A stretch of DNA of 64,000 bases from Desulforapulum autotrophicum (GTDB lineage: Bacteria > Desulfobacterota > Desulfobacteria > Desulfobacterales > Desulfolunaceae), in the NCBI GenBank assembly GCA_020723285.1, contig DYJE01000004.1, positions 62,001 through 126,000 on the forward strand, given 5' to 3'. Below, one piece after another: positions 33,601 through 64,000 of the stretch. Within the stretch, counting starts at the first letter, position 1, and every line of letters starts with the position of its first letter. Position numbers and translations under genes: made by a program. Under the pieces are notes generated by a model that was not told the origin of the DNA, searched no databases, and was given only the letters and a program-made list of their open reading frames with translations.

Positions 33601-33790
33601 CGAGCGTTTTGGCATCCGCTTCGATGAAGAAACAGGGTGGTTAAATATCAGCGAAAAAATCCCTCTGGCCTGCAAACAATACACGGAAACGGATCTTTTC
33701 GCCGAAATTCGGGTTGAAGACAGCGTCCACACCAACAACACCTTCACCATCCGTTATGAGATGCCAGTCCGCTGTTTCAGCGACTTTTGA
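30647..33790 (+). CDS. Large exported modular protein with putative Ig and PPC-like repeats
   Basis: 1047 residues with a signal peptide (AVSLWGFVVAVIIFTQGIAA). It alternates two module types. Putative Ig domains carry signatures such as GSGxxxF, LPxGLxxxxDGxxxG and GxYPxxIxVxD. Three longer modules begin VVDYFPDxxE and include GDxDxxTANxL and HTFxxxGDxD, resembling bacterial pre-peptidase C-terminal (PPC) domains, at about 288-400, 505-615 and 720-830. No catalytic domain is seen, so an adhesin or surface scaffold is likely. The 3' end overlaps the convergent gene by 14 bases. Start codon ATG lies in the ATGA overlap with the Sel1 gene. Confidence 0.8.
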   Translation: MTRRAVSLWGFVVAVIIFTQGIAASDDSLTPVLPPPVEITTENIASCYAGDDYSTQISATGGSGDIVFSADTLPAFLKIKKNGRLKGRVMSPADEFRLTIIATDKKFKEHGARRDYTLTVYPAMEIHEYEPKAATAGYPYQHRFHIKGGSGTLRAVAEGLPDGLSMDGDGIVSGTPSAKPGRYTCVLTVNDLGPLGKTLKKKFKLKVYPELTAECQNPGPVLVRSRLTVPVRVSGGSGSYRFYSTDLPQGLTVSSSGSVQGTVDVRRGRYPYTLHIEDKKTGIVRAEKQEITVVDYFPDVYEAMNDDGFDTGNHVGDGAGPQHHTLDKPGDRDTVTMDFGSAGEGSVICIDVRNGVETSGLFLTLYNAAHDVVAKLRSDHSLQYFFTCEKNGVYYVRFETGAEKTGDFTFEARIMGKAVTLSNETLADVSRVYDRPQKLSAADGSGSHRFSPVDLPDGLDLDPDGILNGRAAVPPGQYPVKIRVDDRLYPGIFHEKEYTISVVDYFPDDYEKAGDQDVSTANTLKPGDPPQNHTFNTVNDDDVIKIDLAGIPDSHVIRVETVAASSSVKPELGLFDASNTRFQSPEGVEPEGQTEAFFQKKAMDAVFVRIKEPEGKTGEYRIQVRDMGSCVTFAGIAVPDALRRGAYTHKITAENGSGRYHFTARNLPGSLAMDGDGVIQGQLDLEPGRYPISVTVEDRGYPGTSAEKDAVLCVVDYFPDAFENMGDSDHHTANALVLGSGEQKHTFHRAGDVDMMRLNLEQCRPGDVIRVIVPGAEEGGALTLELQDLSGTVLGRAERTDSKETIRIVHICQNPGVLYLKAVETHNGPGCYSVRADHCGPKIELTEAALPYGESDAHYSMFLRTRGGTGKVSYSVSQGALPEGLNLDETTGEISGRNRTWGHTGFSVTAKDVQFPENRDTRTFSMETYMGRKLDGTAIVEFPHYVSGAFSWDEQICSTTAFPGRIEGGTPGHLRYRMVSHNIPPERFGIRFDEETGWLNISEKIPLACKQYTETDLFAEIRVEDSVHTNNTFTIRYEMPVRCFSDF

Positions 33791-36700
33791 TCGTTATTTT
33801 CGGTGATGCCGCACCGATGGTCTGATCCGAGAACGCCTTGAACGACGGGTAACCGCTTTTTTCAAACCGACCCTTGGTCCATGACCCGGTAACATCGAAC
33901 GTGGTGGTTTCCCCTTTTTTTGAAGTCCGCTTCTGCCAGCCTCCGAAGGCATTCTGAGCTGTTCCGTCTGAAGGAAGGGTGGATTCCAGGGAATACCCCT
34001 TGGGAATTATGAGCTGGACACGCTTGATCAGCCGTGTGGGATAGGAAATGATAAAATCGGTTTTTCTTTCAAGAACGGGTTGAACTTCCAGATAGTAGGA
34101 CATCCATGCATCCGGAAGGGCAAAGGAAACACGGTCGCCGTTTTTTTCACACAGTTCTTTCACGTCATAGGCAATCTTAAATACCAGATCTTTTGTATTC
34201 GAATCCATATTTTCAACGGCCAGGGCCACCGAGGCGCTTTTCGGAATTTTGTCGGAATAGAGCTTTTGAATCCAGTTCGTGTAACTGACCTTATCAACCG
34301 ATGAAAGGTAATCCCGCATCATGGCGGCGGCATAACCTTTGAAGGCGATATTTTCCTCGATGGACAGTTCAAGGGTTTCTGAAACACGGGCCTTCATTTC
34401 CACGTCAATCCATGTCGAATCCTCCGTGTATTGGGGAATCGTGCTCAGATGGGAGGCCCCTTCAGCGAGGATCAGGGCTTTCTGGCCGGAAAGACCCATG
34501 GGGATATGGTTGAGCATATCCAGGTGTTTGGATGTTGTATCGATATAAAAACCAGCACCGGCTTCGGGGATGTAATTGATCATGTGGTTGAACTGGCCCA
34601 GTGAGGGGAGACTTTCAACGACCGTTTCGCCGGTATTGACAAGGACCAGGGACGACGGGATGGATACAGCCTTGAGCATCTGGTGGAGAAGGACGGCATG
34701 GTCTTTACAGTCGCCGTATTTTTTTTCAATGGTGACCCGGGACGTGTTGGGAATGATGGCGCGTTTTCCGAATTCGATCGCTTTGTATGTGTATTCGGAC
34801 TGGATATGTGAAATCAGCGTCCTGATTTTATCCTCCCTGGTTTTGGCCCGTGCGGTGAGCGCAAGTGCCAGTTTTTTTGTTTTTTCGTCAAGGACCAATT
34901 TGGCGGCGATGTCGTTGAGGTATTCATCTCCAATGGCCTGCCAGGTTTTTCCGGCCCCGGCGAGTTTTACCATGGGAAGAAATTCGTCTGTCTTTCCCTG
35001 GAACGGTTCCCATAGGTATACGGGCGGATGGGTCATGGTCCAGGCCAGGCCGTTTTCGACAGGAACGATATCCGGTGTGTTGAATGTGCTCCGGGAGATG
35101 AACTTCGTATCACCTGTGACGAATAACGCCGAATACTGTACGGGCCTTGAAGCGGACAGGGTGTCTGAATGATAGATGAATTCTTTGCCGCTGTTTTTCC
35201 GGGTGCTGATCAGTTCAATGGTGTAGCCGGGTTTTAAATTGGGGATGGGAATGTTCAGTATTTTATCGTGTGTGGCCATGTCGGTTGAGTGCTTGTCCAG
35301 AATATAGTAATCGGAACTGTCACCCGAACTGACCTTTTTCCCTGTTTCGTCGATCACGACCAGGCTGTTCACATAAAGACTTTCAGACAGGGGATCAAAA
35401 TCGATTTCTATGGTGCTGAACGCCGACACGCCGCTTTTATCCAAAAGTTTTATTTTTCTGTAGGTGGTCGTTCTCTGTTCCACATCTTTTACATAATGTA
35501 TTCCCCTTATGATGCTGATGTAATACGCGCCGTAATCCGCATCATTCCCATGGCCGGGACTTTGCTTCAGTTGTTCAACGATGACATCGGGAATGGGCAC
35601 GGGTTCGATGGGCGTCTTTATCGACGAATTGTTGCCCTGGCCTATGATGCCGGATATGTGCTGGAGATAGTTTTTAGCCTGGGGGTCTTCCGGCGATTCT
35701 TTCAGAACGAGTTCAAAGGACTCCTTGGCTTTGTGATACCACCGGAGGTTGATTTCCGCTTCTCCTTTCAGGTAATACGCGTCCGAGAGATACAGTTTCC
35801 GGGTTATCAGGTCATCAGCCACGGTGATCACGTCCTTGTACTGTTCCATGGCATTTAAATTCCGCGCAACGGCAAAGGAGATGTCGGCTTGAAACGGAAT
35901 GCCCTTCTGGAGGTTTAGAAGGAAATTCACAGCGTCCCTGTATTTGCCCTGATCGTGAAGAAGGGCGGCCTTTTTCAGATGAACGTCAATGGAGCTGTCT
36001 TTGCGGACATAGGATGCAAAAGCGGGTTCAATGTCGTTCCATAGCCGCAATGTTCCCAGAAGATCGGCATATTCTATGAAATCACTGTCGTTGCGATAGT
36101 CTTTTTCAAACAGCGACCGGTAAGCCGCGAGGGATGGAGCGTTCATGTCGAGTTTTTTCATCAGCCAGGCTTTCCATGACAGAATCGTCAGGTTTTCCGG
36201 ATGGAACTCGTCGTGTTTTTCAAGGTATTCAAGACCCTTTTTGAATTCCCCGAGCGCGGAGTAACAGGAGAGAGATGAGGCCAGATAGGCGTCTCTTTCC
36301 GTATCGAGATCCGTGGCTTTCATGTACCAGGTGAGAGCTTTTTCATAGTTTTTGGCTTTGTAATAAAATGAAGCGAGGGAGGAATCAAACGACGCCTGGG
36401 CTTTTTTAAAAGCCGCCGGCAAGGAGGCGGGATCAAATCCGGCGGGCTGTCTGCCATGGAGGGTGAAAGACTGATAAAGCTTATTGGACAGAACGTTGAT
36501 GTCCGTATTTTTTTCATTGGTCCATGCGGCTATCATGTATGCTGTTTCATGATCGATGATAATTCTGATGGCGAAATCGTTGGGGATTTTGTCTATGACC
36601 CGGTGATAGTTCAGGGTGTAACCTTTGGCCTGGGCATTTTTGATTTCTTTCAGGTTGGTGATGTTCTTGTCTGATGAAGCGATGTCCAGGGTATTGAGAA

Positions 36701-38225
36701 ACGCTGAAAGAATCACGTCGGACGCGACGTTTTCCCGGCCGATGTAGCCTGGGACCACGATGAAAAGGCTTCCATTTTTTTCACCTCCGATTTCCGCTTC
36801 CGGATTGTATTTCGCCAGATCCGTCCATTTAGCCCACCCTTGTCCGGCCAGAGAGAGGGTGTAGTTGAAAAAGGGGGACGAGAAGGATTCAAGGGGCTGA
36901 TATTCGGTGGAATAAAATTCCTTGTTTTTATCGATAAACTGAAAGCCCCCGAAAATCTTTTCAGATGCTGCAACCATCTGGTCTTTGCCCAGCGACGGAG
37001 CCATGGTGACAAGCTGATAGGCCATGCCGTTTTTTATGATATTCCAGAAACGGTAAGACAGATTCTGGCCGCCCAGGATTGCGTCGACATCCCAGCTAAA
37101 TCCCTGGATGCCGTTCAGCGAACAGTCTTCACCTTCTGATATCCGGCAGTCTGATGCCAGGCTCTTGATATTGCCTTTGGAGTACTCGACAAGTTTTTTT
37201 AAGGATAACCCTTTGTCCACTCCGATAATTTCGGGGATAATCATGAAAACCATCTGGGGGTTGGACGTGATCAGGCACAGCTTGGCATTGGGATTGACGT
37301 TTGCGGAATCCATTTTGACCCAGCCCGCATGGGGGGCGGTGTATGAGAAGTTGTAATCGTCTAACCGCCATGTCTCCCCTTTTTCCGACGAGTTGCCGAT
37401 CAGGGCTTTTTCCATGTGTTTTATAAAGTCAACCGTCACCTGATATTCAATGTCACTGGAAAGACTGTTGAAGGCTTTTCCGGCAGGGGCGTCGATAAAA
37501 TCCGCGCAACCTTCAAGTTCTTCATCGGAATGGTTTCTGAAAGAGAACAGCGAATCGATCAACCGTTTCCGGGTCGCTTTTTTTTCGATCTGTTCGCGGT
37601 TCTTCTCAAATTCAGTCTTCACTTTGTCCAAGAGGGGCTGAAGGGGCGTGGACGTCAGCTTCGACTGCATTTCCATTCTGAAAATGGCCAGATCGTACTC
37701 CAGTTTTACGAGGCGCTTCACGGTTTCCGCAGATTTCATGTACCGCTGAATCAGCGAAAGCCGACGGGGCGATGCCTGAAGGTTCATGATATCCGACTCA
37801 AATTCTTCTTTTTTAGTCAGTTCATCCGGATTCAGATCCTGGATGGAGTGTTGAGTGATTCGCTGTCCCAAAGGCGAGTCGTACCAGGCGATCACCTCTT
37901 TGATCTGGGCTTCGGACATGTCCGCCTTGATCCGGTCATAATACATTTTTCTGATATCGGAGATAACGATGGCATTTTTAAGGATACGTTCAACTTTTTC
38001 GAGCTCCCTGGGTTCCGGCGTTTTATGGTTCGCGGCAATTCTTTTGACGAGGATTCCGCGGAATAAACCGGGGAGAAGCGAGACTTGTCTGTCGATATCG
38101 GATGATTTTAAAAGGTTGTCGATGAGATCGTTATTCGAAAAGGCCCCGGATGAAGCCGATTGATACATGATGGACACTCCAAGAAAGCAACACAATAACC
38201 CTAAAAACGTGACCCGTCGTTTCAT
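33777..38225 (-). CDS. 1482-residue DUF2059 / TPR / DUF3857-transglutaminase-like protein
   Basis: A signal peptide starts the protein (VTFLGLLCCFLGVSIMYQSAS). A DUF2059-like segment (MSEAQIKEVIAWYDSPLGQRI, near residue 110) is followed by a middle region of unknown fold (280-600). TPR-like helical pairs lie around 610-860, then DUF3857 and a transglutaminase-like core. The core shows the Cys in KYGDCKDHAVLLHQML, His in GQFNHMINYI and Asp in FYIDTTS, the full catalytic order. DUF3857-transglutaminase proteins are usually 600-700 residues, so this one is doubled in size by its N-terminal half. Role unknown; periplasmic or outer-membrane location is inferred. Confidence 0.82.
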   Translation of the reverse strand: MKRRVTFLGLLCCFLGVSIMYQSASSGAFSNNDLIDNLLKSSDIDRQVSLLPGLFRGILVKRIAANHKTPEPRELEKVERILKNAIVISDIRKMYYDRIKADMSEAQIKEVIAWYDSPLGQRITQHSIQDLNPDELTKKEEFESDIMNLQASPRRLSLIQRYMKSAETVKRLVKLEYDLAIFRMEMQSKLTSTPLQPLLDKVKTEFEKNREQIEKKATRKRLIDSLFSFRNHSDEELEGCADFIDAPAGKAFNSLSSDIEYQVTVDFIKHMEKALIGNSSEKGETWRLDDYNFSYTAPHAGWVKMDSANVNPNAKLCLITSNPQMVFMIIPEIIGVDKGLSLKKLVEYSKGNIKSLASDCRISEGEDCSLNGIQGFSWDVDAILGGQNLSYRFWNIIKNGMAYQLVTMAPSLGKDQMVAASEKIFGGFQFIDKNKEFYSTEYQPLESFSSPFFNYTLSLAGQGWAKWTDLAKYNPEAEIGGEKNGSLFIVVPGYIGRENVASDVILSAFLNTLDIASSDKNITNLKEIKNAQAKGYTLNYHRVIDKIPNDFAIRIIIDHETAYMIAAWTNEKNTDINVLSNKLYQSFTLHGRQPAGFDPASLPAAFKKAQASFDSSLASFYYKAKNYEKALTWYMKATDLDTERDAYLASSLSCYSALGEFKKGLEYLEKHDEFHPENLTILSWKAWLMKKLDMNAPSLAAYRSLFEKDYRNDSDFIEYADLLGTLRLWNDIEPAFASYVRKDSSIDVHLKKAALLHDQGKYRDAVNFLLNLQKGIPFQADISFAVARNLNAMEQYKDVITVADDLITRKLYLSDAYYLKGEAEINLRWYHKAKESFELVLKESPEDPQAKNYLQHISGIIGQGNNSSIKTPIEPVPIPDVIVEQLKQSPGHGNDADYGAYYISIIRGIHYVKDVEQRTTTYRKIKLLDKSGVSAFSTIEIDFDPLSESLYVNSLVVIDETGKKVSSGDSSDYYILDKHSTDMATHDKILNIPIPNLKPGYTIELISTRKNSGKEFIYHSDTLSASRPVQYSALFVTGDTKFISRSTFNTPDIVPVENGLAWTMTHPPVYLWEPFQGKTDEFLPMVKLAGAGKTWQAIGDEYLNDIAAKLVLDEKTKKLALALTARAKTREDKIRTLISHIQSEYTYKAIEFGKRAIIPNTSRVTIEKKYGDCKDHAVLLHQMLKAVSIPSSLVLVNTGETVVESLPSLGQFNHMINYIPEAGAGFYIDTTSKHLDMLNHIPMGLSGQKALILAEGASHLSTIPQYTEDSTWIDVEMKARVSETLELSIEENIAFKGYAAAMMRDYLSSVDKVSYTNWIQKLYSDKIPKSASVALAVENMDSNTKDLVFKIAYDVKELCEKNGDRVSFALPDAWMSYYLEVQPVLERKTDFIISYPTRLIKRVQLIIPKGYSLESTLPSDGTAQNAFGGWQKRTSKKGETTTFDVTGSWTKGRFEKSGYPSFKAFSDQTIGAASPKITIKSR

Positions 38226-39470: not shown

Positions 39471-40520
39471 TCACGCAATGGAACGAGAAGGTATGGATAA
39501 CGGCTTACGCATGTTACAAATTTTGCATAGCTGGTGTTCTGAATATGAATCCGAAAAAGTTGCGTATGTTTGACCGTTCCAGATTTCATCAAGCGTATTA
39601 TTGTAAATATTCCCGAAATTACCAAGTGTTCTTCGAAGCTCATCGGGTGCACAACAAACGTTGAAACGACCGGAATGGTCTATCCATGCTTCTTTACCGA
39701 TAAATGGACATTCGCCGCCCGGGGCGATATCATCGGGTTTTTCGACGTTTAAAGGGAAAAAGTGCTCAAGTTTAATGGATTTGCCGTTCAGTCGTTTTTC
39801 GGCTTTGGCAATATAGGTGCAGATGGAGACACAACGATTCCATCTTTGGATTGCGTCACCATTCCTTCGCAGAGAAAGATGCGTTATCTCTTTAAAATGA
39901 GGCCAGAGGTGATGGCCTTTCACACGGTCAAATCCAAGCTTGATGGCCATTCGGACCAGATCGGGGATTTCATCGAGATTCATTTCCATGAATGTGAGCT
40001 GAAGGGTCAAGTTGCAATAGTGCCCACTATTGGCTGCAATACTGTCACGCATAGCAACCAGGGCCTGCGCATTTTTCATGTGGGAGTTCAGGGAGGTCCC
40101 TACCATGATTTTTTCCTGGGTTTTTTCGCTTGACCCATTCCAGGATATTTTGATGTCGCTGCCTATGGGAAGGATCTTTTGGCCCCAATAATCCACATGA
40201 TTTTTCTTTCCTTTGATGGGGAATGTCCCATTGGTGGTCAGGTTGATTTTCAGATTCAATTCCCGGCAAATGTCGACGAGTTTTTCAAAATGGTTGTATA
40301 GGAGCGGTTCTCCCATGGTAGAGGGGATGATTTCCCTGACGCCCAGATGCGCGGCCTGGCGGATGATGGATTCCATCAAGCGTTCAGGCATCATGGGACG
40401 AATTGCTCTGCCGTTCTTTCTGGAATAGATGGAATGGTCCTCGCACATGATGCAGTTGAGATTACAATGGTCCGGGTTCGTATCGAGGGTCATTCTCCAT
40501 AATTCTCGATTTGATTTCAT
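39471..40520 (-). CDS. Radical SAM enzyme with SPASM domain
   Basis: 349 residues. The radical SAM cluster motif is Cys19-x3-Cys23-x2-Cys26 (CNLNCIMC), followed by a GEPLL stretch. The C-terminal SPASM-type auxiliary-cluster region has Cys in GGECPFIGKEAW, FNVCCAPD, and CKICNMR with the usual GNIYNNTLDEIWNG. Such enzymes modify peptides, sugars or aminocyclitols. It is the last gene of the carbamoyltransferase cluster, overlapping the glycosyltransferase gene by four bases, so a sugar or small-molecule substrate is more likely than a peptide; no precursor-peptide gene is seen. Confidence 0.85.
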   Translation of the reverse strand: MKSNRELWRMTLDTNPDHCNLNCIMCEDHSIYSRKNGRAIRPMMPERLMESIIRQAAHLGVREIIPSTMGEPLLYNHFEKLVDICRELNLKINLTTNGTFPIKGKKNHVDYWGQKILPIGSDIKISWNGSSEKTQEKIMVGTSLNSHMKNAQALVAMRDSIAANSGHYCNLTLQLTFMEMNLDEIPDLVRMAIKLGFDRVKGHHLWPHFKEITHLSLRRNGDAIQRWNRCVSICTYIAKAEKRLNGKSIKLEHFFPLNVEKPDDIAPGGECPFIGKEAWIDHSGRFNVCCAPDELRRTLGNFGNIYNNTLDEIWNGQTYATFSDSYSEHQLCKICNMRKPLSIPSRSIA

Positions 40521-41809
40521 ACAAATTCCTTGTAGAGGGTTTCAAGTTTTTCAAGATGTTCATCCAAATCCGGAATCTGACCGTCGTCGGAATAAAGATA
40601 GCCACGCCGCCCCAGTTTTTCTGCAAGAAAGGGGGCATCACGAAGACGCTGCATCTGGGATGCCAGGCTGTCCGGTGACCGATGGGCGAACAGGAGTCCG
40701 TTTACGTGATGCTGAACGTATTCGGCCATTCCGCCAACGTCGGCAGTGATTACGGGAATCCTTGCCTGTTGGGCTTCATGGATAACCAGAGGTGAGTTTT
40801 CTGTCCAGATCGACGGCACGACGATGGCGTCCACATGATCAAAAACATCAGGAACGATGTCGTTGTTTTTATACTCGTGCATCCATTCCACTTTTTTTGA
40901 AGTTCCATGCGTTGCCTGGTCTGCGATTTTTTTGAGGGCTTGGGTGATTTCCCCTCGATCACGCCCCCAGATTCGTAGCTGACATTCGCCGTTGACGCTT
41001 CCAAGGGCTTCGATAAGCTGGTTGACCCCTTTGGAAGGGATGTGGGTCCCGATATACCCGAATGTGAACGGTTCATGGCCGTTTCGTGACCGGTTCCGGA
41101 GCCGCGTTCGGTCAAAGCCGTAATCCATGTACATTGTTTTTTCTTCAAGATGGCTGAAACAGGATGTGAATCTTTTTTTGAGATACCGCGACGGGGAGAT
41201 GAACAGATCCACCTGATCGGCCACGTCTTTGATGTGATTCATTCGTCGTTTGACCCAGTTCTCCCAGAAATACCGGTCCTGCGTTTCCTCCTTTGGATCT
41301 CCTGAAAAATATCTTGAGTAACAGCGGCTGGCACAGGTCCGGTTTTCCTGTTTTTCACAGACCGCCCACAGGTTGCCCTCCTCTGCGTCCATCTGCATGA
41401 ACTGGCCCCTGGGGCACATCAGCCAGAAATCGTGCAGGGTGAATACGATGGGGATATTTCTTTTTTTTGCCTCGAACACCAGCGAGGTCGACAGATGGTT
41501 GAGATGGCCGATGTGGACGATATCCGGCCGGATTTCATCGAGCATGGCCGCAAACCTTCGGTCTATGACATCGACCCGGTATCGGTCCTTGTGCCGTGGA
41601 TTGTTGACGAGGCGCAATCGAACCCCCGGTTCGGAGGCATCCTGCTCATGGCGGATATCGCCGTCATATCTGAACGGGTCTTCTTCCCTGGTAAAAACGT
41701 GAACTTCGTGCCCCCGTCGTGCAAGTCCCTGGCAAATGGTTTGAGAGTAAACTTCAGATCCCGCATTGTATCGCATGGGATATCCATGAATGACTTTGAT
41801 AATTTTCAT
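40517..41809 (-). CDS. GT4-family glycosyltransferase
   Basis: 430 residues with the GT-B fold: N-terminal KVIHGYPMRYNAGSEVYSQT (acceptor side, Gly-rich loop) and C-terminal donor-binding domain with FGYIGTHIPSKGVNQLIEAL and the EX7E motif ENSPLVIHE. It transfers a sugar from a nucleotide sugar with retention of configuration. The 4-base overlaps at both ends (with the epimerase upstream and the radical SAM gene downstream) tie it to the cluster. Confidence 0.9.
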   Translation of the reverse strand: MKIIKVIHGYPMRYNAGSEVYSQTICQGLARRGHEVHVFTREEDPFRYDGDIRHEQDASEPGVRLRLVNNPRHKDRYRVDVIDRRFAAMLDEIRPDIVHIGHLNHLSTSLVFEAKKRNIPIVFTLHDFWLMCPRGQFMQMDAEEGNLWAVCEKQENRTCASRCYSRYFSGDPKEETQDRYFWENWVKRRMNHIKDVADQVDLFISPSRYLKKRFTSCFSHLEEKTMYMDYGFDRTRLRNRSRNGHEPFTFGYIGTHIPSKGVNQLIEALGSVNGECQLRIWGRDRGEITQALKKIADQATHGTSKKVEWMHEYKNNDIVPDVFDHVDAIVVPSIWTENSPLVIHEAQQARIPVITADVGGMAEYVQHHVNGLLFAHRSPDSLASQMQRLRDAPFLAEKLGRRGYLYSDDGQIPDLDEHLEKLETLYKEFV

Positions 41810-42723
41810 AGGGCGTTCCGAATTTCCGTCAACTGTTTTCTAAAGGTTTCGACAAACATGGTGATTCCGGCCTGGGGGCTGATTTCCGCCCTCCAGCCCA
41901 GTACTTTGCGTGCACGGTCAGGACATCCGACAAACCGGCTGACATCGTATTTTCTGGGTGGTGCTTCGACGATCGTTGAGGTTGTTTTTGCTGCAGCAAT
42001 GGCCATTTTTGCTGCCAGTTCAAGGGTTGTGGGAATGCCGGGCAGAAGGTGAAGGGCGGGCAGATTTGCAACCCCAGAATCCAGGAGTTCAACAATTCTT
42101 AGAATTCCTTTGGCCACATCTGAAACGTGTGTGAAGTCAAAGGTGTTTTGTCCGCCGTCCACGCGGAGGGATTCCCCAAGAACCGCAGCACGGCAAAAAG
42201 CGGGCAGGACACGATCCGGGTGATCAAATGTGCACCCGTATACATTGGCAAGCCTTACGACGGCAGTGTTCAAACCCTGTTTCCGTGCTTCAAACGCGGC
42301 GTCTTCCATGGCTTTTTTTGAACGGCCATAAATGTTGACGGGTTGGAGAGGCGTGGATTCCTTGACCGGTAAGGAGTTGGATTCTCCGTAGACTTCCCGG
42401 CTGCTTGCGACAAGAACCCATGGTTTCAAAGGGCTCTGCACGGCAAGATCCAATAGGGTGCGGCTCGCCTTTGCATTGGTTTTCCAGCACAGATCCGGAT
42501 TGTTCTGGCCATGAACCACCCGTGATACGGCTGCAAAATGGATAACACCATGGCAGCCTTCCATGGCTTTTCCCATCTGTTCAGCCTCACAAATATCCCC
42601 TCGAAATGTTTTTTGCCGGGAACGCAGATCTATTCCCTTAACCCTGAATCCAAGGTTTTCCAGCTCCGGCCATACGTACCGGCCGACAAGCCCTTCATGT
42701 CCTGTGACTAAAATTGTTTTCAT
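41806..42723 (-). CDS. NAD-dependent epimerase/dehydratase (sugar nucleotide)
   Basis: 305 residues, extended short-chain dehydrogenase fold. The NAD-binding TGHEGLVGRYV lies at the N-terminus. The catalytic Ser is in LVASSREVYGES and Tyr-x3-Lys is in NIYGRSK. GalE-like enzymes convert UDP- or dTDP-sugars; the exact reaction cannot be told. It starts about 50 bases after the carbamoyltransferase and overlaps the glycosyltransferase by four bases. Confidence 0.88.
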   Translation of the reverse strand: MKTILVTGHEGLVGRYVWPELENLGFRVKGIDLRSRQKTFRGDICEAEQMGKAMEGCHGVIHFAAVSRVVHGQNNPDLCWKTNAKASRTLLDLAVQSPLKPWVLVASSREVYGESNSLPVKESTPLQPVNIYGRSKKAMEDAAFEARKQGLNTAVVRLANVYGCTFDHPDRVLPAFCRAAVLGESLRVDGGQNTFDFTHVSDVAKGILRIVELLDSGVANLPALHLLPGIPTTLELAAKMAIAAAKTTSTIVEAPPRKYDVSRFVGCPDRARKVLGWRAEISPQAGITMFVETFRKQLTEIRNAL

Positions 42724-42774
42724 GAAAAATCCTTATGCAATAAAGGTCGGTTTGAACGACAGATGCCGCTCAGA

Positions 42775-44436
42775 TTAAAGATAACGAAGTTTGGATTGGC
42801 CGAGTTTTTCAATCCATAACGCATCAAGCCCGATGGCCCGACCAGAACGCAGGGCATCGCTTATATCCTGAACGATCGGTTCACCGCTCTGGTTGAACGA
42901 TGTGTTCAGAAGCCCATGAATCCCATACTTGTCCCTCAGCAGAACAAGAAGCCTGTATATGGATGACAATTCAGCGCTTTTATTTCTGACTATTTGCGCC
43001 CGGACCGAGCCATCCGCATGAGCAACACCTTGGAAATGGGGGAGCCATGAGGCGTTTATTTTCCACGCCCCGGACATGAATGCTCCAAGGCAACTGTGTT
43101 GACGATATTCCTCAAGACACGTCTTGGCCGTATCCTCAAGCATGATGGGGGAGACGGGACGATACCATTCCCTTTTTTTCATCACTTCGCTGATGTGTTT
43201 TCTGAGTTCGATGCTGTCCGGTCTGGCCAGAATGCTTCTGTGGCCAAGGGCCCGGGGGCCGCATTCTCCATGACCGATAACGGTGCCGATCACCTTTCCA
43301 TCAGCGATCATTCGGGCGATTTCATTGATGGTGGTATCGGATACAGGGCGTGATGTTGATTCGCTTTTTCCAGGACTACGGACGATAAACGGAGAACATT
43401 TTTCAATGTGTCTTCGTTCCTGCCATTCGGCCATAGCCGCGGCCCCCAAAGCCAAACCGCTGTCGCAGGGAGCAGGGGGGACAAAAATATGGTCGAAACC
43501 CACTTCATTTTCGATTCTCACGTTTGTATGGATATTCAACGCTGCGCCACCGGAATAATGAAGATGGGCGCAGGAGGTTTTCTTTTTCCACTGCCCGATG
43601 AAATCGACGATTGAATGTTCAAAGTCCATCTGCATGCATGCAGCTATGTCGGCACAAACGGTATGCCTTGTCGGATTCTGGGTTTTTTTCATCGTTTCGA
43701 TGAGATCCTGAAATAATGGAGTCAGGCGATGACTTCCCGCTGAGTTTGATGATAGACACTGGATGAGGGCAACAAGATCGGAATTTGCCGTGCCATGCCC
43801 TGAAAAGCCCATGAGCTTGCCCGGCATGGACAGGTGGTCTTCGGCCCGAAGACCGAGTATGGCTTGGGAAAGCATGCTTGCATTGAAATGGTTCACCACT
43901 CTTTTCAGGCTGTCCCAATCATAGGAAAGGCAACGAAGATTCCCTTGATTGTATGTCCAGACTGAATTTGCGGAAACAGATGCACCACCATCGATGTGCA
44001 GAAGAAGAGAATTTTCGGAAAAAGTACCGCAGAAGGGCAGACAACTTGAGATATGGGCCAGCTCATGACTGATCGCCCACCCCTGTGTTCGGGGTTCTTT
44101 CAGGTAGCCTTTCGTTTCGATATGACAGGGGACCATGATATCCTCCGGCTTAAACCCTTTGGGCACGGTCATGGACAGGCTTTCCGATTCGCTGGTGAAT
44201 GAATCGCCGTAGAAGGAACTCACAAGGATAAAACGGATTTCTTCGTTTGGTACAAGAAACGGTCGAAGCAATGCATCGAAACACATGGACAGATTTCCAT
44301 CATGCTTGGTGCGTGAAAATCGTTCTGCGGGAAGATGCGCTATCACAACCCCATTTCTGATCAAGGCGATGCCGTGATCGTGGGCATGGCACGATCCGCT
44401 TTTGTCCGGAATACCGTGGATGCCGACTGTCAGCAT
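42775..44436 (-). CDS. NodU/TobZ-type carbamoyltransferase
   Basis: O-carbamoyltransferase that uses carbamoyl phosphate and ATP to put a carbamoyl group on a sugar or antibiotic hydroxyl. From ATG 44436 it has 553 residues. The Kae1-like N-domain shows HDHGIALI, AERFSRTKHDG, the metal-ligand region HELAHISSCL and LLHIDGGASVS. The C-terminal part has the family signature GHGECGPRALGHRSILA and LLNTSFN. GAAGGAG lies eight bases before ATG 44436; a longer frame to 44472 lies inside the upstream gene. The start overlaps the end of the WG-repeat gene. Confidence 0.92.
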   Translation of the reverse strand: MLTVGIHGIPDKSGSCHAHDHGIALIRNGVVIAHLPAERFSRTKHDGNLSMCFDALLRPFLVPNEEIRFILVSSFYGDSFTSESESLSMTVPKGFKPEDIMVPCHIETKGYLKEPRTQGWAISHELAHISSCLPFCGTFSENSLLLHIDGGASVSANSVWTYNQGNLRCLSYDWDSLKRVVNHFNASMLSQAILGLRAEDHLSMPGKLMGFSGHGTANSDLVALIQCLSSNSAGSHRLTPLFQDLIETMKKTQNPTRHTVCADIAACMQMDFEHSIVDFIGQWKKKTSCAHLHYSGGAALNIHTNVRIENEVGFDHIFVPPAPCDSGLALGAAAMAEWQERRHIEKCSPFIVRSPGKSESTSRPVSDTTINEIARMIADGKVIGTVIGHGECGPRALGHRSILARPDSIELRKHISEVMKKREWYRPVSPIMLEDTAKTCLEEYRQHSCLGAFMSGAWKINASWLPHFQGVAHADGSVRAQIVRNKSAELSSIYRLLVLLRDKYGIHGLLNTSFNQSGEPIVQDISDALRSGRAIGLDALWIEKLGQSKLRYL

Positions 44437-45776
44437 GAAGCGATCTCCTTCAATCCCTGAAAACGCCGCCATTCAGTCAATTGAGATCCGTTTGAAAAGA
44501 AACACACACCGTCAAGGTACCCGACCCAGTCGTCGGGTGTGGGATGGTGCAGCCCCAGATGATCAAACAAACCGGCGATAAAAAAATCATGGGTAATCAA
44601 TAAGGTCGGCCTGTCTTTCATGGATTGCTCAGCGAGACTCATCATATCTCTGCAACCGTCGATAAGTGGCCGAAATCCTTGACCATGACCTGTATTCAGA
44701 TAATGCAGGGCGGCTTCCCAAAAATTTTCCGGTGTAAGGTGGCTCTGGTTCTGGACCGTATCAGTAAAAGGGCCTGGGTTTCCAAGGAGAGATGTTTCAA
44801 TGATTTCCGAAACGTTGATCGGGGTTCCAATGCCATGAGAAAGATGACGACATGTATCGACACATCGTCCGATCGGGCTGGAGATCAAGGCCCAAGCAGG
44901 TTCCTTTCTTCCAAGAATCTGTCCGAGGGACTGCGCTGCGAACTGCCCGTTCCTGTTCAGCTTCGCATCATCACCCCACTCCCCCTGAGGGATTGGGTCG
45001 CGTTCGGCGTGCCGCAGGATCAGGGCGACCCTTTCCCCTCGCGCCATCCGATCCACGATTTCCTGGATATGCACATCCGGCATTCGGGCCGGTAAGTGTT
45101 TATAATGGCCGTTTTCCATCAGCCTGATCCATTGGCCCTCCTTTGTTTTGCACAGCGAGAAGCCATTGTAAAAGGGCTCAACCCATTTGAATCTATGTTC
45201 ATAGATGGGCTGCCCATGTTTGTTGATATGGAAGGCCCCCTGTTTATCCCGGACCACGGCAAATCCTTTATGGAATACATCGACGTTTTCAAAGGAATGG
45301 TTATGAAGGGGGCTGCCGTCGTCATTTATATGATATGCAACATTGCCGTGGCGGACAGCGGCGATTCCGTAGCGGAAATCCCCGACGTAGTCGAATCGTT
45401 CATCATAAAGGGGGGTAAAGGAGTTGTTGATATGAAAAAAACCTTTGGCATCCTGAACCACGCAACGTCCTTCCTGAAAGTTTCCACTCCAGATGTATCG
45501 CTGTGAATGAAAAACCTTACCCGTTGTATCGATATGGAAATAGCCGGTGTTATCACGTACAGTGGCAATGCCTTGGTAAAAGCCGAATGTTTCCTGATAG
45601 CGATCCGTATACAAGGGCGCTCCATCCATGGTGATATGGTATGCTCCGGATTCGTCACTGACTGCGGCAAGGCCTTCTGGGTCGTGGTAGCTCATGGCTC
45701 GTTTGAATGTTTTACCAAAACAGAGATGACCATTGACCAGAAAACCGGTTTCTTCTTGATTTAATGTTGGTTTCAT
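44430..45776 (-). CDS. WG-repeat / histidine-phosphatase fusion protein
   Basis: 448 residues with two parts. Residues 34-220 hold about five units of roughly 38 residues with the pattern GxAxVRDxxGxFHIxxxGxPLYxxRF, a WG-type repeat expected to form a beta structure. Residues 248-448 are a histidine phosphatase domain: LRHAERD with catalytic His256, ISSPIGRCVDTC and a second catalytic His396 in LLITHDF. The phosphatase may dephosphorylate a sugar phosphate for the downstream enzymes. No signal peptide. It is the first large gene of the cluster, 66 bases after the DUF4258 gene. Confidence 0.82.
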   Translation of the reverse strand: MKPTLNQEETGFLVNGHLCFGKTFKRAMSYHDPEGLAAVSDESGAYHITMDGAPLYTDRYQETFGFYQGIATVRDNTGYFHIDTTGKVFHSQRYIWSGNFQEGRCVVQDAKGFFHINNSFTPLYDERFDYVGDFRYGIAAVRHGNVAYHINDDGSPLHNHSFENVDVFHKGFAVVRDKQGAFHINKHGQPIYEHRFKWVEPFYNGFSLCKTKEGQWIRLMENGHYKHLPARMPDVHIQEIVDRMARGERVALILRHAERDPIPQGEWGDDAKLNRNGQFAAQSLGQILGRKEPAWALISSPIGRCVDTCRHLSHGIGTPINVSEIIETSLLGNPGPFTDTVQNQSHLTPENFWEAALHYLNTGHGQGFRPLIDGCRDMMSLAEQSMKDRPTLLITHDFFIAGLFDHLGLHHPTPDDWVGYLDGVCFFSNGSQLTEWRRFQGLKEIASC

Positions 45777-45842
45777 TTTTTGTTATATCCTTAAATACGT
45801 TGATTGTTTCATCGTGCCCTTTCGATGAATCAAGATATCACT

Positions 45843-46118
45843 TTAACGCAAGTGGCTGATTCGACGACAGACTCTGAACACTGTGATGATGCATGTATCA
45901 TTGCAAACAACACCCACGGGGGCGCATTTTTCAGCCTTGTCAAGTAAACCAGTGGGGTAAACTTTTCTTTTCCGAAGTGTTTGGATATGGCGTATATCCA
46001 ATAAGTACCTGTTCGCATTTTGTTGAAGCACCTCGCCTTCCTGAAGAACTAGATTGACAATGTCCTGAGAGATAGCGCGTTCTTTCATCCGTTTTTTTGC
46101 GTGTAAGCTGTATTGCAT
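45843..46118 (-). CDS. DUF4258 family small protein
   Basis: About 91 residues from ATG 46118, which has GAAGGAA upstream; a longer frame reaches 46133. The segments YSLHAKKRMKERAISQDIV and the final strand CIITVFRVC are those of DUF4258, a small basic fold related to RelE/BrnT-like toxins but of unproven function. No antitoxin-like partner is adjacent. It is the first gene downstream of the -24/-12 candidate and is probably in the same transcript as the carbamoyltransferase cluster. Confidence 0.7.
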   Translation of the reverse strand: MQYSLHAKKRMKERAISQDIVNLVLQEGEVLQQNANRYLLDIRHIQTLRKRKVYPTGLLDKAEKCAPVGVVCNDTCIITVFRVCRRISHLR

Positions 46119-46165
46119 TGTTATTCCTTCCATGTTCGTTCTTCACAATTTTTAAAATGTCCATT

Positions 46166-46181
46166 TGCGTGAATCATGCCA
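46166..46181 (-). promoter_or_regulatory. Candidate sigma-54 promoter of the carbamoyltransferase cluster
   Basis: On the minus strand the site reads TGGCATGATTCACGCA. The invariant GG and GC are ten bases apart and TGGCAT-G matches the -24 box; the -12 box has AC where TT is usual. It lies about 50 bases before the DUF4258 start and about 170 bases from a divergent sigma-54 activator gene. The context raises a moderate match to a plausible one. Confidence 0.5.
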
Positions 46182-46348
46182 TGTTCTATGCCCATACATC
46201 ATTATGGGGTATGAATTTATAATATCAGTAAGTTGTATCCTGATTGATTTGATTGTCAGATAATCTTTAGTTGCTTAAAATTCATTTTTAAAATATCATA
46301 ATTGATTATTAATTCAAAAATGACCATTATATAAATCCGGGGGAGAAT

Positions 46349-48310
46349 ATGGCTGAAGAAAAATGGACCTTTGTAACCGCCTATTTTAGGAACCACGGGA
46401 TTGCGTATTTTGAAATGATTATAAAAGCCTTGGCTGAAAAACCGATGGGGCATAAGGATTTATTGGAGGGATCAAAGGGATGTTTTGATCAAATCGGACT
46501 TGTCAGGAAAAAAGAACCGAAGTTTTGCAAGAATATCGATCAATATATCTATCTTGTCCCTATGGGATGTAAAGATAACAACAAGTTCCATACGGCTGAG
46601 TATCATCCCTGGCACAAAAAAGACTCGGATCGATTACATCAAAGCTTGAAAGAAGAATATCGTGAAAAAAGAGCCGAAGTGATTGAACGATTTGACAAGC
46701 TCTTAGACATAGCAGAAAAAATTGAAGGGCAAACCCCTAAGCTACCACCTCTCGATTATATTGATCTTGCATTACAAAATTCGTGGCGACCTGATCAGAT
46801 GCATGACTTATGGCAGATTGTCCATGAACTTCCATTGTCGCAGCAAATCAAGTGGTTTGAACGTTATTCTCATTTCAAGGATCATATTGCGTCAGGACCG
46901 TGGGATGAGATCAAGGATAGCAAAAAGGAAATAATGATCGTTGAAATTGGAAGCCCTGGAATGTCTGACGATGATATTTCATCATGGGGCCCCTCTCTTA
47001 ATGATTGGATTGATACGTTGTCCATGGAAAAAAAACTGGGGGTTGGCCTCTATGGAACGGGAACCCACAATGAGCTGGCGTGGAGATATTTGAAAAAACG
47101 CAAAATCAAGCTCAAACAGACCGTTTTTTTTGATGTGAAAACGAAAGCGTTCAAAGAAGAAGCGAGACGATTCAGATCGTTTCAGATACACAGCGCCCTT
47201 GAGGATTTAATTCAACAGGAAAAACCGCCAGCACCCGGAACGGATTGGTATTCAAAGGAAAGACAACAAGCCCAAAAAAAACTTCAATTGTATAAAGAAT
47301 GGGGTGACCTTTTTTCCATCGTTGTTATCGGGAATCGCGGGACTGGAAAATCGAGAATGATCCGGGAAGTTTTTATAAATAATGATAAAAACAGAAACGA
47401 TCAACACAGTGAAATCGTCGAAATTAACTGCGCCGCTGTCCCTGAATCCCTTGCAGAATCAATATTCTTCGGTCATAAAAAAGGCGCGTTCACTGGTGCA
47501 GACAATGATGAACAGGGCGCCTTTGGTCGTCTTAAGAAATATTACGATAAGACTCAGGATTATGGTGTGTTGTTTCTCGATGAATTCCACCACCTTCCCC
47601 AAACCATTCAAAGCAAACTCCTCGTAGCCCTTCAAGCAGATAGCGATGGTATGTATACATACACACCCTTGGGACATACCGAATCCAGTAAAGTTAAATT
47701 CCAAATGATTCTGGGGACAAATCAGCGGGAAGAAAAATTAAAAGGAGGGGGCTCTCCATTATTCAGGGACTTTCTCGATAGAGTGCTGCAACGAAAAGTC
47801 TACCTTCCGGATTTGGAACAATCTGAAATCATTTCCGCCTGGAGTGCCGTATGGAAACGCATGAATTTCAGTCCTGAAGTCGACGATCCTCTTGTGGGGG
47901 ATCTTGGGGAAGAATTTAAACAGTGGCTGAAAACATTGACGTTCCCCGGCAATTTTCGCGATCTGGAAAGGCTGACCATTCTGACGGCTGATAGTATTCG
48001 TGAAAACAATCGCGAAGCAATTGATCACGAAATATTAGGCAACCTCAAGAAGACGGTTAGCAAGGATGGAGCCTGGACGGAACTATCCATGGAGCCACAA
48101 AACAAAACATATTCCAACATCCCGAATATGATTGAACTTGAGCCTGAATGGTACAGCCACCTAAAGAGCACTGAAAAAAAGATTAGATTCTATTTGGCCA
48201 ACAAACTTATTGATCACTTTGGCGGTAAGCAGGCTGCGGTTGACGCGGTAAGAAAAACCTCAAATCAATTTAGCATCTCAACTTTAAATAGATGGTTGGC
48301 TAAAGCATAG
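46349..48310 (+). CDS. Sigma-54-dependent activator (bEBP) with unrecognised N-terminal half
   Basis: 653 residues. The central AAA+ domain has Walker A at 328-335 (GNRGTGKS), an intact GAFTGA loop at 379-384, Walker B LFLDEF (about 408-413) and an arginine-finger segment RDFLDRV, so it should remodel sigma-54 polymerase. The C-terminus (HFGGKQAAVDAVRKTSNQFSISTLNRWL) looks like a Fis-type DNA-binding helix pair. The first 300 residues match no receiver, PAS or GAF domain I know. They include a possible Rossmann-like stretch (EIMIVEIGSPGMSDDD then VGLYGTGTHNELAWRYLKKR). GGGGGAG precedes the ATG. The gene is visibly richer in A/T than its surroundings. Confidence 0.87.
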   Translation: MAEEKWTFVTAYFRNHGIAYFEMIIKALAEKPMGHKDLLEGSKGCFDQIGLVRKKEPKFCKNIDQYIYLVPMGCKDNNKFHTAEYHPWHKKDSDRLHQSLKEEYREKRAEVIERFDKLLDIAEKIEGQTPKLPPLDYIDLALQNSWRPDQMHDLWQIVHELPLSQQIKWFERYSHFKDHIASGPWDEIKDSKKEIMIVEIGSPGMSDDDISSWGPSLNDWIDTLSMEKKLGVGLYGTGTHNELAWRYLKKRKIKLKQTVFFDVKTKAFKEEARRFRSFQIHSALEDLIQQEKPPAPGTDWYSKERQQAQKKLQLYKEWGDLFSIVVIGNRGTGKSRMIREVFINNDKNRNDQHSEIVEINCAAVPESLAESIFFGHKKGAFTGADNDEQGAFGRLKKYYDKTQDYGVLFLDEFHHLPQTIQSKLLVALQADSDGMYTYTPLGHTESSKVKFQMILGTNQREEKLKGGGSPLFRDFLDRVLQRKVYLPDLEQSEIISAWSAVWKRMNFSPEVDDPLVGDLGEEFKQWLKTLTFPGNFRDLERLTILTADSIRENNREAIDHEILGNLKKTVSKDGAWTELSMEPQNKTYSNIPNMIELEPEWYSHLKSTEKKIRFYLANKLIDHFGGKQAAVDAVRKTSNQFSISTLNRWLAKA

Positions 48311-63700: not shown

Positions 63701-64000
63701 TACCCAGTGTAACCGCCTGCGGAAGGGTTCTGAATAGAAAAGAGCCAGTCTAATGCCGATGGCTGGGGGGACGGCTTTTTATGGAAATGACGGGCTTGTG
63801 ATGTAACATACAGAAATAGAAAGGAGTTATGGATGAAAATAGGAGGGGTGTTTTTTTGGCACACCGCTTGCTATAAAGAAAGTCAAACATGCGGCGAGGA
63901 TCAAGCCACCACCCCTGACATGATCCGGACCACGAAACCATTGCAAGTCTCCTCTCCTCCAACCGGGGACATACCGGGGATGGGATAAAAAACGGCAACC
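63701..64000. other. Right-edge non-coding region
   Basis: No gene is supported in the last 300 bases. A weak hairpin, GCCG at 63763-63766 with CGGC at 63774-63777 followed by TTTTT, could terminate the kinase operon. After it lie a near-consensus sigma-54 promoter and a leader of at least 120 bases for a gene that begins outside the window. Confidence 0.45.
63857..63872 (+). promoter_or_regulatory. Near-consensus sigma-54 (-24/-12) promoter
   Basis: TGGCACACCGCTTGCT, preceded by a T-tract, matches TGGCACG-N4-TTGCW at every position but one (A for G after TGGCAC). GG and GC are ten bases apart. Transcription would run to the right, off the window. It is the best sigma-54 site in the sequence. 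Confidence 0.85.

Follow-up and report, generated by a model that had tools for sequence, protein, structure and literature searches.

A carbamoyltransferase operon of Desulforapulum autotrophicum is a variant of a mobile radical SAM cassette that may serve in phage defence

The operon located at 39471–46118 on the minus strand of a 64-kb stretch of Desulforapulum autotrophicum DNA (the whole stretch analysed, hereafter the window) almost certainly belongs to a cassette of genes for an epimerase, a GT4 glycosyltransferase, a radical SAM (rSAM) enzyme, a WG protein, and a phosphatase, and this cassette moves horizontally between lineages. We interpret the operon as an inducible, carbamoylating variant of this mobile biosynthetic cassette and are inclined to think that its product is used in biological conflict, foremost in the chemical defence against phages. 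That the cassette makes a small molecule is likely; phage defence as its role we consider evenly balanced.

The reading of the sequence and its open reading frames showed six intact, tightly packed genes, all on the minus strand, and the Pfam domains and motifs bore out the gene set, the positions, and the short overlaps and gaps given in a sequence-only reading of this DNA. The first gene encodes a DUF4258 protein of 96 aa (45843–46133; Pfam PF14076, 32 bits at a cut-off of 25), for which the start at 46118, preceded by AAGGAAT, is better placed. After a gap of 66 nt it is followed by the gene of a WG beta-propeller fused to a histidine phosphatase (44430–45776; Pfam WG_beta_rep 48.7, His_Phos_1 44.8) and then by that of a NodU/TobZ-type carbamoyltransferase (42775–44436; Carbam_trans_N 76.9, Carbam_trans_C 152). 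The longest frame of the latter starts at 44472, but the ATG at 44436, downstream of AAGGAG, is preferred, which gives an overlap of 7 nt with the fusion gene. A gap of 51 nt precedes the gene of an NAD-dependent sugar epimerase/dehydratase of the SDR type with a YGRSK motif (41806–42723; Epimerase 146.5). Overlaps of 4 nt (ATGA) connect this gene to that of the GT4 glycosyltransferase with CPRG and EX7E motifs (40517–41809; Glycos_transf_1 89.8, Glyco_transf_4 78), and the GT4 gene to that of the rSAM/SPASM enzyme (39471–40520; Radical_SAM 39.3, SPASM 42.2).

In the fusion protein, the WG propeller is N-terminal (approximately 45048–45776) and the phosphatase, with the motifs RHAE, SSPIGRC, and THD, is C-terminal (approximately 44430–45040). 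The AlphaFold model of the WG part has a pLDDT of 93.8 and finds propeller matches among the PDB structures; over 46 aligned rows, the WG protein of the operon, which is of the FHI type, shows 36–45% identity and 18 invariant columns. The residues E337-x7-E345 of the GT4 protein are invariant across five relatives. Its match to PF20706 ("GT4-conflict", 46.6 bits) was rejected as generic GT4 similarity, because Glycos_transf_1 scores 89.8. The rSAM protein contains the motif CNLNCIMC and the C-terminal SPASM cysteines, and falls under the cut-off of every NCBIfam rSAM family; the identities of a tungsten cofactor maturase (74.6 bits versus a cut-off of 380) and a viperin (NF038283, 26.4 bits versus 180) were rejected.

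Both Carbam_trans domains together with the metal-site and ATP-site motifs (SHELAHISS, DSGLALGAA, GPRALGHRS, and NTSFNQSGEP, aligned with TobZ) place the carbamoyltransferase in the NodU/TobZ family. It has the domains and catalytic motifs in common with the O-carbamoyltransferases of this family but lies on a separate branch and far under the cut-off of the NodU nodulation equivalog (NF041651, 132 bits versus 1000). It is 39–43% identical to the enzymes of five other cassettes. Its identity to the two best homologues from the same order that are not part of a cassette is 28–29%, and the cassette enzymes resemble one another more than they resemble the non-cassette ones. The intact O-carbamoyltransferase motifs are consistent with the carbamoylated product suggested earlier, and the product of the operon is probably a glycosylated metabolite that is O-carbamoylated here.

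The genome search with an rSAM alignment yielded 178 confirmed relatives, of which 80 loci were fetched, so the initial view that the cluster had no known counterpart did not hold. The WG-phosphatase protein used as a lone query found no matches in the genome scan. The cassette occurs in at least ten phyla, among bacteria and some archaea, with GT4 and rSAM proteins at 45–66% identity (GT4, 46–66% across loci; rSAM, 45–55% across phyla), and the window operon has the orthologous rSAM/SPASM and GT4 genes adjacent on the same strand. In the 82 loci covered by our composition counts, the rSAM gene is accompanied by genes for GT4 (78), WG (77), a methyltransferase (62), a phosphatase (44), an epimerase (34), and a carbamoyltransferase (6). 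As GT4 and WG are found in 78 and 77 of these loci, the coupling of the genes is not a matter of chance. The WG gene is always on the strand of the rSAM gene, at a median spacing of −11 nt. Fusions of GT4 with rSAM (33 loci), of epimerase, GT4, and rSAM (3), and of WG with a methyltransferase (57) were also found. The functional coupling proposed at the outset is thus kept across phyla, and the genes stay together in related genomes instead of being scattered. Most copies encode an O-methyltransferase fused to WG; the window copy has no methyltransferase and, like five others, has the related carbamoyltransferase. Its WG-phosphatase fusion is unique among the 82 loci, and DUF4258, also the first gene in the cassette of locus L012, was not found in the other loci compared.

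The distribution of the cassette is patchy: among 390 genomes of the class to which the window belongs, 5 carry it, each from a different family. In the rSAM tree, where phyla are mixed, the window protein groups as sister (100/100) of 13 rows from Gammaproteobacteria and Bacteroidota and not of the other Desulfobacterales. The epimerase and GT4 are 54–59% and 62–66% identical, respectively, to those of the gammaproteobacterial cassettes (L017–L030 for the epimerase). No empty site was found; the CoA-transferase next to the operon has relatives in three genomes (G016, G026, and G007), with no shared synteny.

The closest published counterpart is the Undecim Cluster of Wolbachia prophage WO (WD0611–WD0621), named in 2022, for which host interaction was proposed and relatives were reported in Rickettsia, Cardinium, and Phycorickettsia only (PMC9203015). 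For the core, high expression, lateral transfer, and a duplication in one obligate strain have been reported (PMC9203015, PMC4683655, PMC12801941). The epimerase, the GT4-rSAM/SPASM fusion, and the WG-containing protein of this cluster are in the same order as in the window; the WO rSAM is 50% identical to that of the window, and the WO GT-rSAM protein matches 84 loci. Meanwhile, the Undecim Cluster has a WG-methyltransferase where the window has the carbamoyltransferase and the WG-phosphatase fusion. UC1, the dioxygenase, the ABC exporter, the threonine aldolases, the UDP-glucose dehydrogenase, and the permeases are all missing from the window operon, which is therefore not an Undecim Cluster in the strict sense of eleven genes. 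An "aminoglycoside synthesis" label for the Rickettsia homologues was not found in the literature searched and was set aside.

The exporter-bearing Undecim version suggests the next choice after phage defence: the cassette might make a secreted natural product (an antibiotic, a toxin-like compound, or a signalling glycoside) acting as an effector against competitors or eukaryotic hosts, with defence islands merely collecting mobile cargo. Homologues of the Undecim exporter, threonine aldolase, or dioxygenase genes accompany the cassette in seven loci (L025, L027, L031, L047, L062, L078, and L088). Many carriers are symbionts or intracellular bacteria, including Wolbachia, Aquarickettsia, Arsenophonus, Endobugula, and Simkaniaceae, and enzymes with this carbamoyltransferase fold act in the decoration of antibiotics (TobZ, GdmN, novobiocin). 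We consider this alternative rather unlikely. The window operon has no exporter, immunity, or NRPS/PKS gene, and the placement of the relatives described below speaks for more than generic cargo.

In the sister gammaproteobacterial group, 5 of 12 separate loci fall within or next to type I restriction, Dnd, McrBC, SIR2-HerA, or GmrSD genes. The cassette stands between hsdM-hsdS-SIR2-HerA and hsdR in L020, between hsdM-hsdS-GIY-YIG and hsdR in L026, between McrBC and hsdR in L091, and between DndCDE and an integrase in L030; HsdR-like and GmrSD genes are near it in L016, and in L028 it follows tnsA/B, i.e., it is Tn7 cargo. Carriers in this clade include Pseudoalteromonas lipolytica (L026), Marinomonas (L017 and L019), and Alteromonas (L028). 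Between hsdS and hsdR, the cassettes keep the same orientation, with the SIR2-HerA pair nested there as well, and a viperin above the curated cut-off is encoded within the L012 operon and near L051 and L070. It is the hsdS–hsdR placements and the viperin inside the L012 operon that argue against mere accumulation of cargo. The cassettes of L020, L026, and L091 have the same core genes as the window and the closest rSAM clade to it; they differ in having a methyltransferase, in lacking the carbamoyltransferase and the sigma-54 activator, and in their defence loci. The flanks gave 328 PADLOC model matches per 108 proteins versus 23 per 108 in control regions of the same genomes, and the flanks in other phyla gave 121 per 101 proteins, all these counts being inflated by redundant models. 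Ten such genomes together have 22 HsdR_N genes, 3 of which adjoin the cassette versus 0.13 expected. This enrichment over the control makes the cassette a candidate anti-phage system; the sequence-only reading did not contain the association of the closest relatives with defence loci.

It should be noted that several relatives of the key clade (L017, L018, L019, and L022) sit among metabolic or ordinary genes. The window is not in a defence island either: the operon has acetoacetate decarboxylase, CoA-transferase, chemotaxis, and helicase genes as neighbours, and no recognised defence gene adjoins it. PADLOC-DB 2.0.0 found no described system in the operon, its sole hits being weak cross-matches to viperin and the RtcR core, and it has no fitting model for the carbamoyltransferase, the GT4, or the WG protein. 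Prokaryotic viperins (pVip) are likewise radical SAM enzymes in a defence setting, but the window enzyme is a SPASM protein. The literature searched did not describe the cassette within defence loci, which is not proof of absence, and gave no relevant paper linking WG repeats with radical SAM, glycosyltransferases, or defence.

That the cassette modifies a surface glycan, lipopolysaccharide, or glycolipid, with possible effects on phage receptors or envelope properties, is improbable. An SDR epimerase and a GT4 are typical of such pathways, and exopolysaccharide or LPS roles were proposed for the Wolbachia homologues (PMC9203015). However, the operon has a single glycosyltransferase and no Wzx flippase, Wzy polymerase, initiating transferase, or exporter, unlike an O-antigen or capsule cluster. 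The radical SAM partner is obligate, and the cassette moves between lineages with different envelopes (archaea, Planctomycetota, Chloroflexota, and Proteobacteria). The absence of polymerase, flippase, and NRPS/PKS genes had been correctly recognised for the operon from the start, and we found no aminoglycoside, capsule, or lipid hallmark in it. More improbable still is a pathway in which the rSAM/SPASM enzyme modifies a ribosomally made precursor peptide and GT4 glycosylates it, even if peptides are frequent SPASM substrates and the rSAM has weak profile similarity to the ScmF and PqqE families. With operon gaps of at most 66 nt there is no room for a precursor gene, and the only small gene, DUF4258, is missing from most relatives; neither an RRE peptide-binding domain (Pfam) nor a RiPP precursor was found.

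A sigma-54-dependent activator is encoded divergently on the plus strand (46349–48310; Pfam Sigma54_activat 100.6 bits); it was not mentioned in the sequence-only reading. It is probably the regulator of the operon. Its AAA core (residues about 320–545, with KKGAFTGADN bearing the GAFTGA motif) is like that of RtcR/PspF, and its best NCBIfam match is RtcR, at 114.6 bits and under the cut-off; the PADLOC RtcR_PspF1 match (169 bits) covers residues 277–639 only. RtcR is the sigma-54 activator of RNA repair (PMC7790460, PMC9650030), but the sensor domain of the window activator, an N-terminal part of about 300 aa with no Pfam match, is not recognised as RtcR/CARF, and no rtcA or rtcB was seen adjoining the gene. 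Since the model of this domain (pLDDT 37) is unusable, an RNA-damage signal is a guess. A related regulator adjoins the cassette in L023, its N-terminal part scoring 22.9 bits for Pfam RtcR at a cut-off of 23.1. The weight-matrix scan, used because a loose sigma-54 consensus gave fewer matches in the whole window than chance, showed a −24/−12 promoter-like site, ATGGCATGATTCACGCA, at 46166–46182 on the minus strand, approximately 48 nt ahead of the ATG at 46118. It ranks fourth over the two strands of the window taken together and is the sole strong site in this intergenic region; upstream of the L023 and L097 cassettes, no site of equivalent top rank was found.

For the product of the operon, we propose the following route. 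The SDR enzyme would supply an NDP-sugar, GT4 would move its sugar onto a small acceptor, and the rSAM/SPASM enzyme would then modify the glycoside; this succession is suggested by the fusion of the three in some relatives. The WG propeller may hold the acceptor or an intermediate for its fused partner, and the histidine phosphatase would take off a phosphate. The NodU/TobZ-type enzyme would O-carbamoylate the hydroxyl that most relatives O-methylate, with the RtcR-like activator turning the operon on, perhaps upon RNA damage.

As the cassette is found among virus-defence genes in several marine bacteria, it may make a virus-protective small molecule. More tentatively, we suggest an undescribed, phylum-spanning form of chemical defence, in which GT4, rSAM/SPASM, and the WG protein would build a phage-blocking molecule that is methylated or carbamoylated depending on the lineage. 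The window copy would be switched on by an RtcR-like sensor, and the Undecim Cluster would be the symbiont version used for virus defence or inter-element warfare. Should the cassette prove to be a defence system, a small-molecule pathway with new chemistry (rSAM and GT4, with decoration by carbamoyl or methyl groups) would join a field in which nucleases and toxins dominate. The presence of the core in culturable marine bacteria, in restriction and Dnd loci, and beside viperin in other phyla makes an intractable question of symbiont biology testable.

The operon of six minus-strand genes (39471-46118) proposed by the sequence-only reading was borne out, all frames being intact. Its members are DUF4258, a WG-repeat/histidine-phosphatase fusion, a NodU/TobZ-type carbamoyltransferase, an SDR sugar epimerase, a GT4 glycosyltransferase and a radical SAM/SPASM enzyme (rSAM). 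With the carbamoyltransferase start placed at 44436, which is preceded by a good ribosome site, this gene and that of the WG/phosphatase fusion overlap by 7 nt, and ATGA overlaps join the epimerase, GT4 and rSAM genes; translationally, these genes are tightly coupled. Sequence comparison showed that the active-site motifs of the enzymes are intact. In the proposed pathway, the SDR would provide a sugar donor, GT4 would attach the sugar from it, rSAM would alter the glycoside, the phosphatase would take off a phosphate and the carbamoyltransferase would add a carbamoyl group; we infer the order of these steps, the acceptor and the product. Elsewhere in the window, part of a 5.4-Mb genome, the minus strand encodes a GT4 glycosyltransferase fused to pentapeptide repeats (54838-57192), an uncommon domain combination with no relation to the operon, and a protein of 1482 aa in which DUF2059, TPR, DUF3857 and transglutaminase-like regions are combined (33777-38225).

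Searches with the WG protein covered 58 relatives, then 292 genomes from the order, and yielded four loci that share the GT4 and rSAM genes and in which WG is accompanied by an O-methyltransferase. A profile built on the resulting five rSAM proteins and run against species genomes gave 178 relatives, of which 80 were fetched (45-55% identity). They come from Proteobacteria, Planctomycetota, Chloroflexota, Cyanobacteriota, Myxococcota, Bacteroidota, Verrucomicrobiota, Chlamydiota, Nitrospinota, Ignavibacteriota and archaeal bins; the relatives L029, L032 and L038 are from Desulfobacterales, the window's own order. Among 82 rSAM loci, GT4 was present in 78, WG in 77, methyltransferase in 62, phosphatase in 44, epimerase in 34 and carbamoyltransferase in 6, all lower bounds owing to contig ends. 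WG always lies on the rSAM strand (median spacing -11 nt). Fusions join WG to methyltransferase in 57 loci, GT4 to rSAM in 33, epimerase to GT4 and rSAM in 3, and WG to phosphatase in the window only. In loci L061, L072 and L090, one protein of ~1100 aa comprises epimerase, GT4 and rSAM/SPASM. The patchiness of the cassette within the class (5 of 390 genomes), the intermixing of phyla in the rSAM tree and the rSAM copies on plasmids and phage indicate horizontal transfer. Three Desulfobacterales carry near the cassette a conserved ~440-aa protein without a Pfam match (L012:1-864, minus; L013:12262-13647, plus; L014:4370-5680, minus), which in L012 and L014 is transcribed divergently from it and which may have an accessory or regulatory function.

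A tblastn search with rSAM matched Wolbachia phage WO and three Arsenophonus plasmids. The WO gene is part of the Undecim Cluster (WD0611-WD0621), in which the epimerase, a GT-rSAM fusion and the WG protein follow the same order as in the window; the claim of no known counterpart was therefore wrong. Roles in polysaccharide synthesis, methylation, antibiotic production and export have been proposed for this cluster (PMC9203015), and its functions were still called unknown in 2025 (PMC12801941); this relative has no established product.

The window operon has a carbamoyltransferase and no methyltransferase. Five other cassettes (L035, L039, L061, L072 and L090) encode carbamoyltransferases 39-43% identical to that of the window, whereas the best non-cassette homologues in the same order reach 28-29%; by this comparison, the enzyme is a cassette component, not one that merely happens to lie there. 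The methyl and the carbamoyl group look like alternative decorations of one scaffold. Carbamoyltransferase-bearing cassettes often have a second, different radical SAM/SPASM protein adjoining that enzyme (L035:783-2902, L039:15324-16847 and L061:10589-11818), which the window lacks. The AlphaFold model of the WG domain (46 relatives; pLDDT 93.8) resembles beta-propellers, among them BamB and designed ones, at a TM of ~0.5. A histidine is invariant or almost so in most aligned repeats, suggesting a face that binds a ligand or a metal. Since the fusion partner of WG is a methyltransferase in most loci and a phosphatase in the window, the predicted role of WG is to present substrate to the partner enzyme.

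Upstream of and divergent from the operon lies a sigma-54 activator (46349-48310) with GAFTGA and an AAA core nearest RtcR/PspF, which was absent from the earlier gene list. A simple matrix scan found a -24/-12-like site, ATGGCATGATTCACGCA (46182-46166, minus), in the ~215-nt gap ahead of the DUF4258 gene; it ranks fourth among such matches in the whole window on both strands. The top-scoring sigma-54 promoter-like site, TTGGCACACCGCTTGCT (63856-63872, plus), lies at the right edge. A similar divergent regulator, its sensor part just short of the Pfam RtcR cut-off, adjoins the Thiomargarita cassette L023. The same kind of scan found no matching sites in L023 or another cassette locus, L097, which leaves control of the window operon by sigma-54 likely and RNA damage as its signal only a guess.

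The rSAM tree gives full support to a sister relationship between the window protein and 13 rows from gammaproteobacteria and one Bacteroidota. Neighbour genes were named from Pfam and PADLOC matches and sequence reading. In this clade, the cassette lies between hsdM-hsdS-SIR2-HerA (L020), hsdM-hsdS-GIY-YIG (L026) or McrB/McrC (L091) and hsdR-ygjP, between an HsdR-like gene and GmrSD (L016), between DndCDE and an integrase (L030, with L033 as an identical second contig), beside Tn7-like genes (L028) or by an integrase (L024); the remaining cassettes sit amid ordinary genes. L030 and L033, from one BD1-7 clade genome, share matching 21-kb segments (DndCDE, cassette, integrase), as if the element had been duplicated. 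In Marinobacter, an RHS-repeat protein with a terminal NucA/NucB-type nuclease domain (L022:3-5999) lies directly upstream of the cassette. The 108 flank proteins gave 328 PADLOC model matches, compared with 23 for 108 control proteins encoded far away in the same genomes and 121 for 101 flank proteins in other phyla, all three counts being inflated by redundant models. Ten of these genomes together contain 22 HsdR_N genes, 3 of which lie beside the cassette, against 0.13 expected (Poisson 0.0003). Viperin genes above the curated cut-off occur in three phyla, at a short distance from the cassette in L051 and in L070 and inside its operon in L012 (1647-2555, between DUF4258 and GT4; NF038283, 286 bits). 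PglZ and BrxL genes flank L014 and L029, and BrxL flanks L055. Domain searches of the flanks recognised no defence gene neighbours of the window operon, and an empty site for it was sought and could not be shown. On the neighbourhood statistics of the window operon's relatives, the cassette is a candidate for a role in defence.
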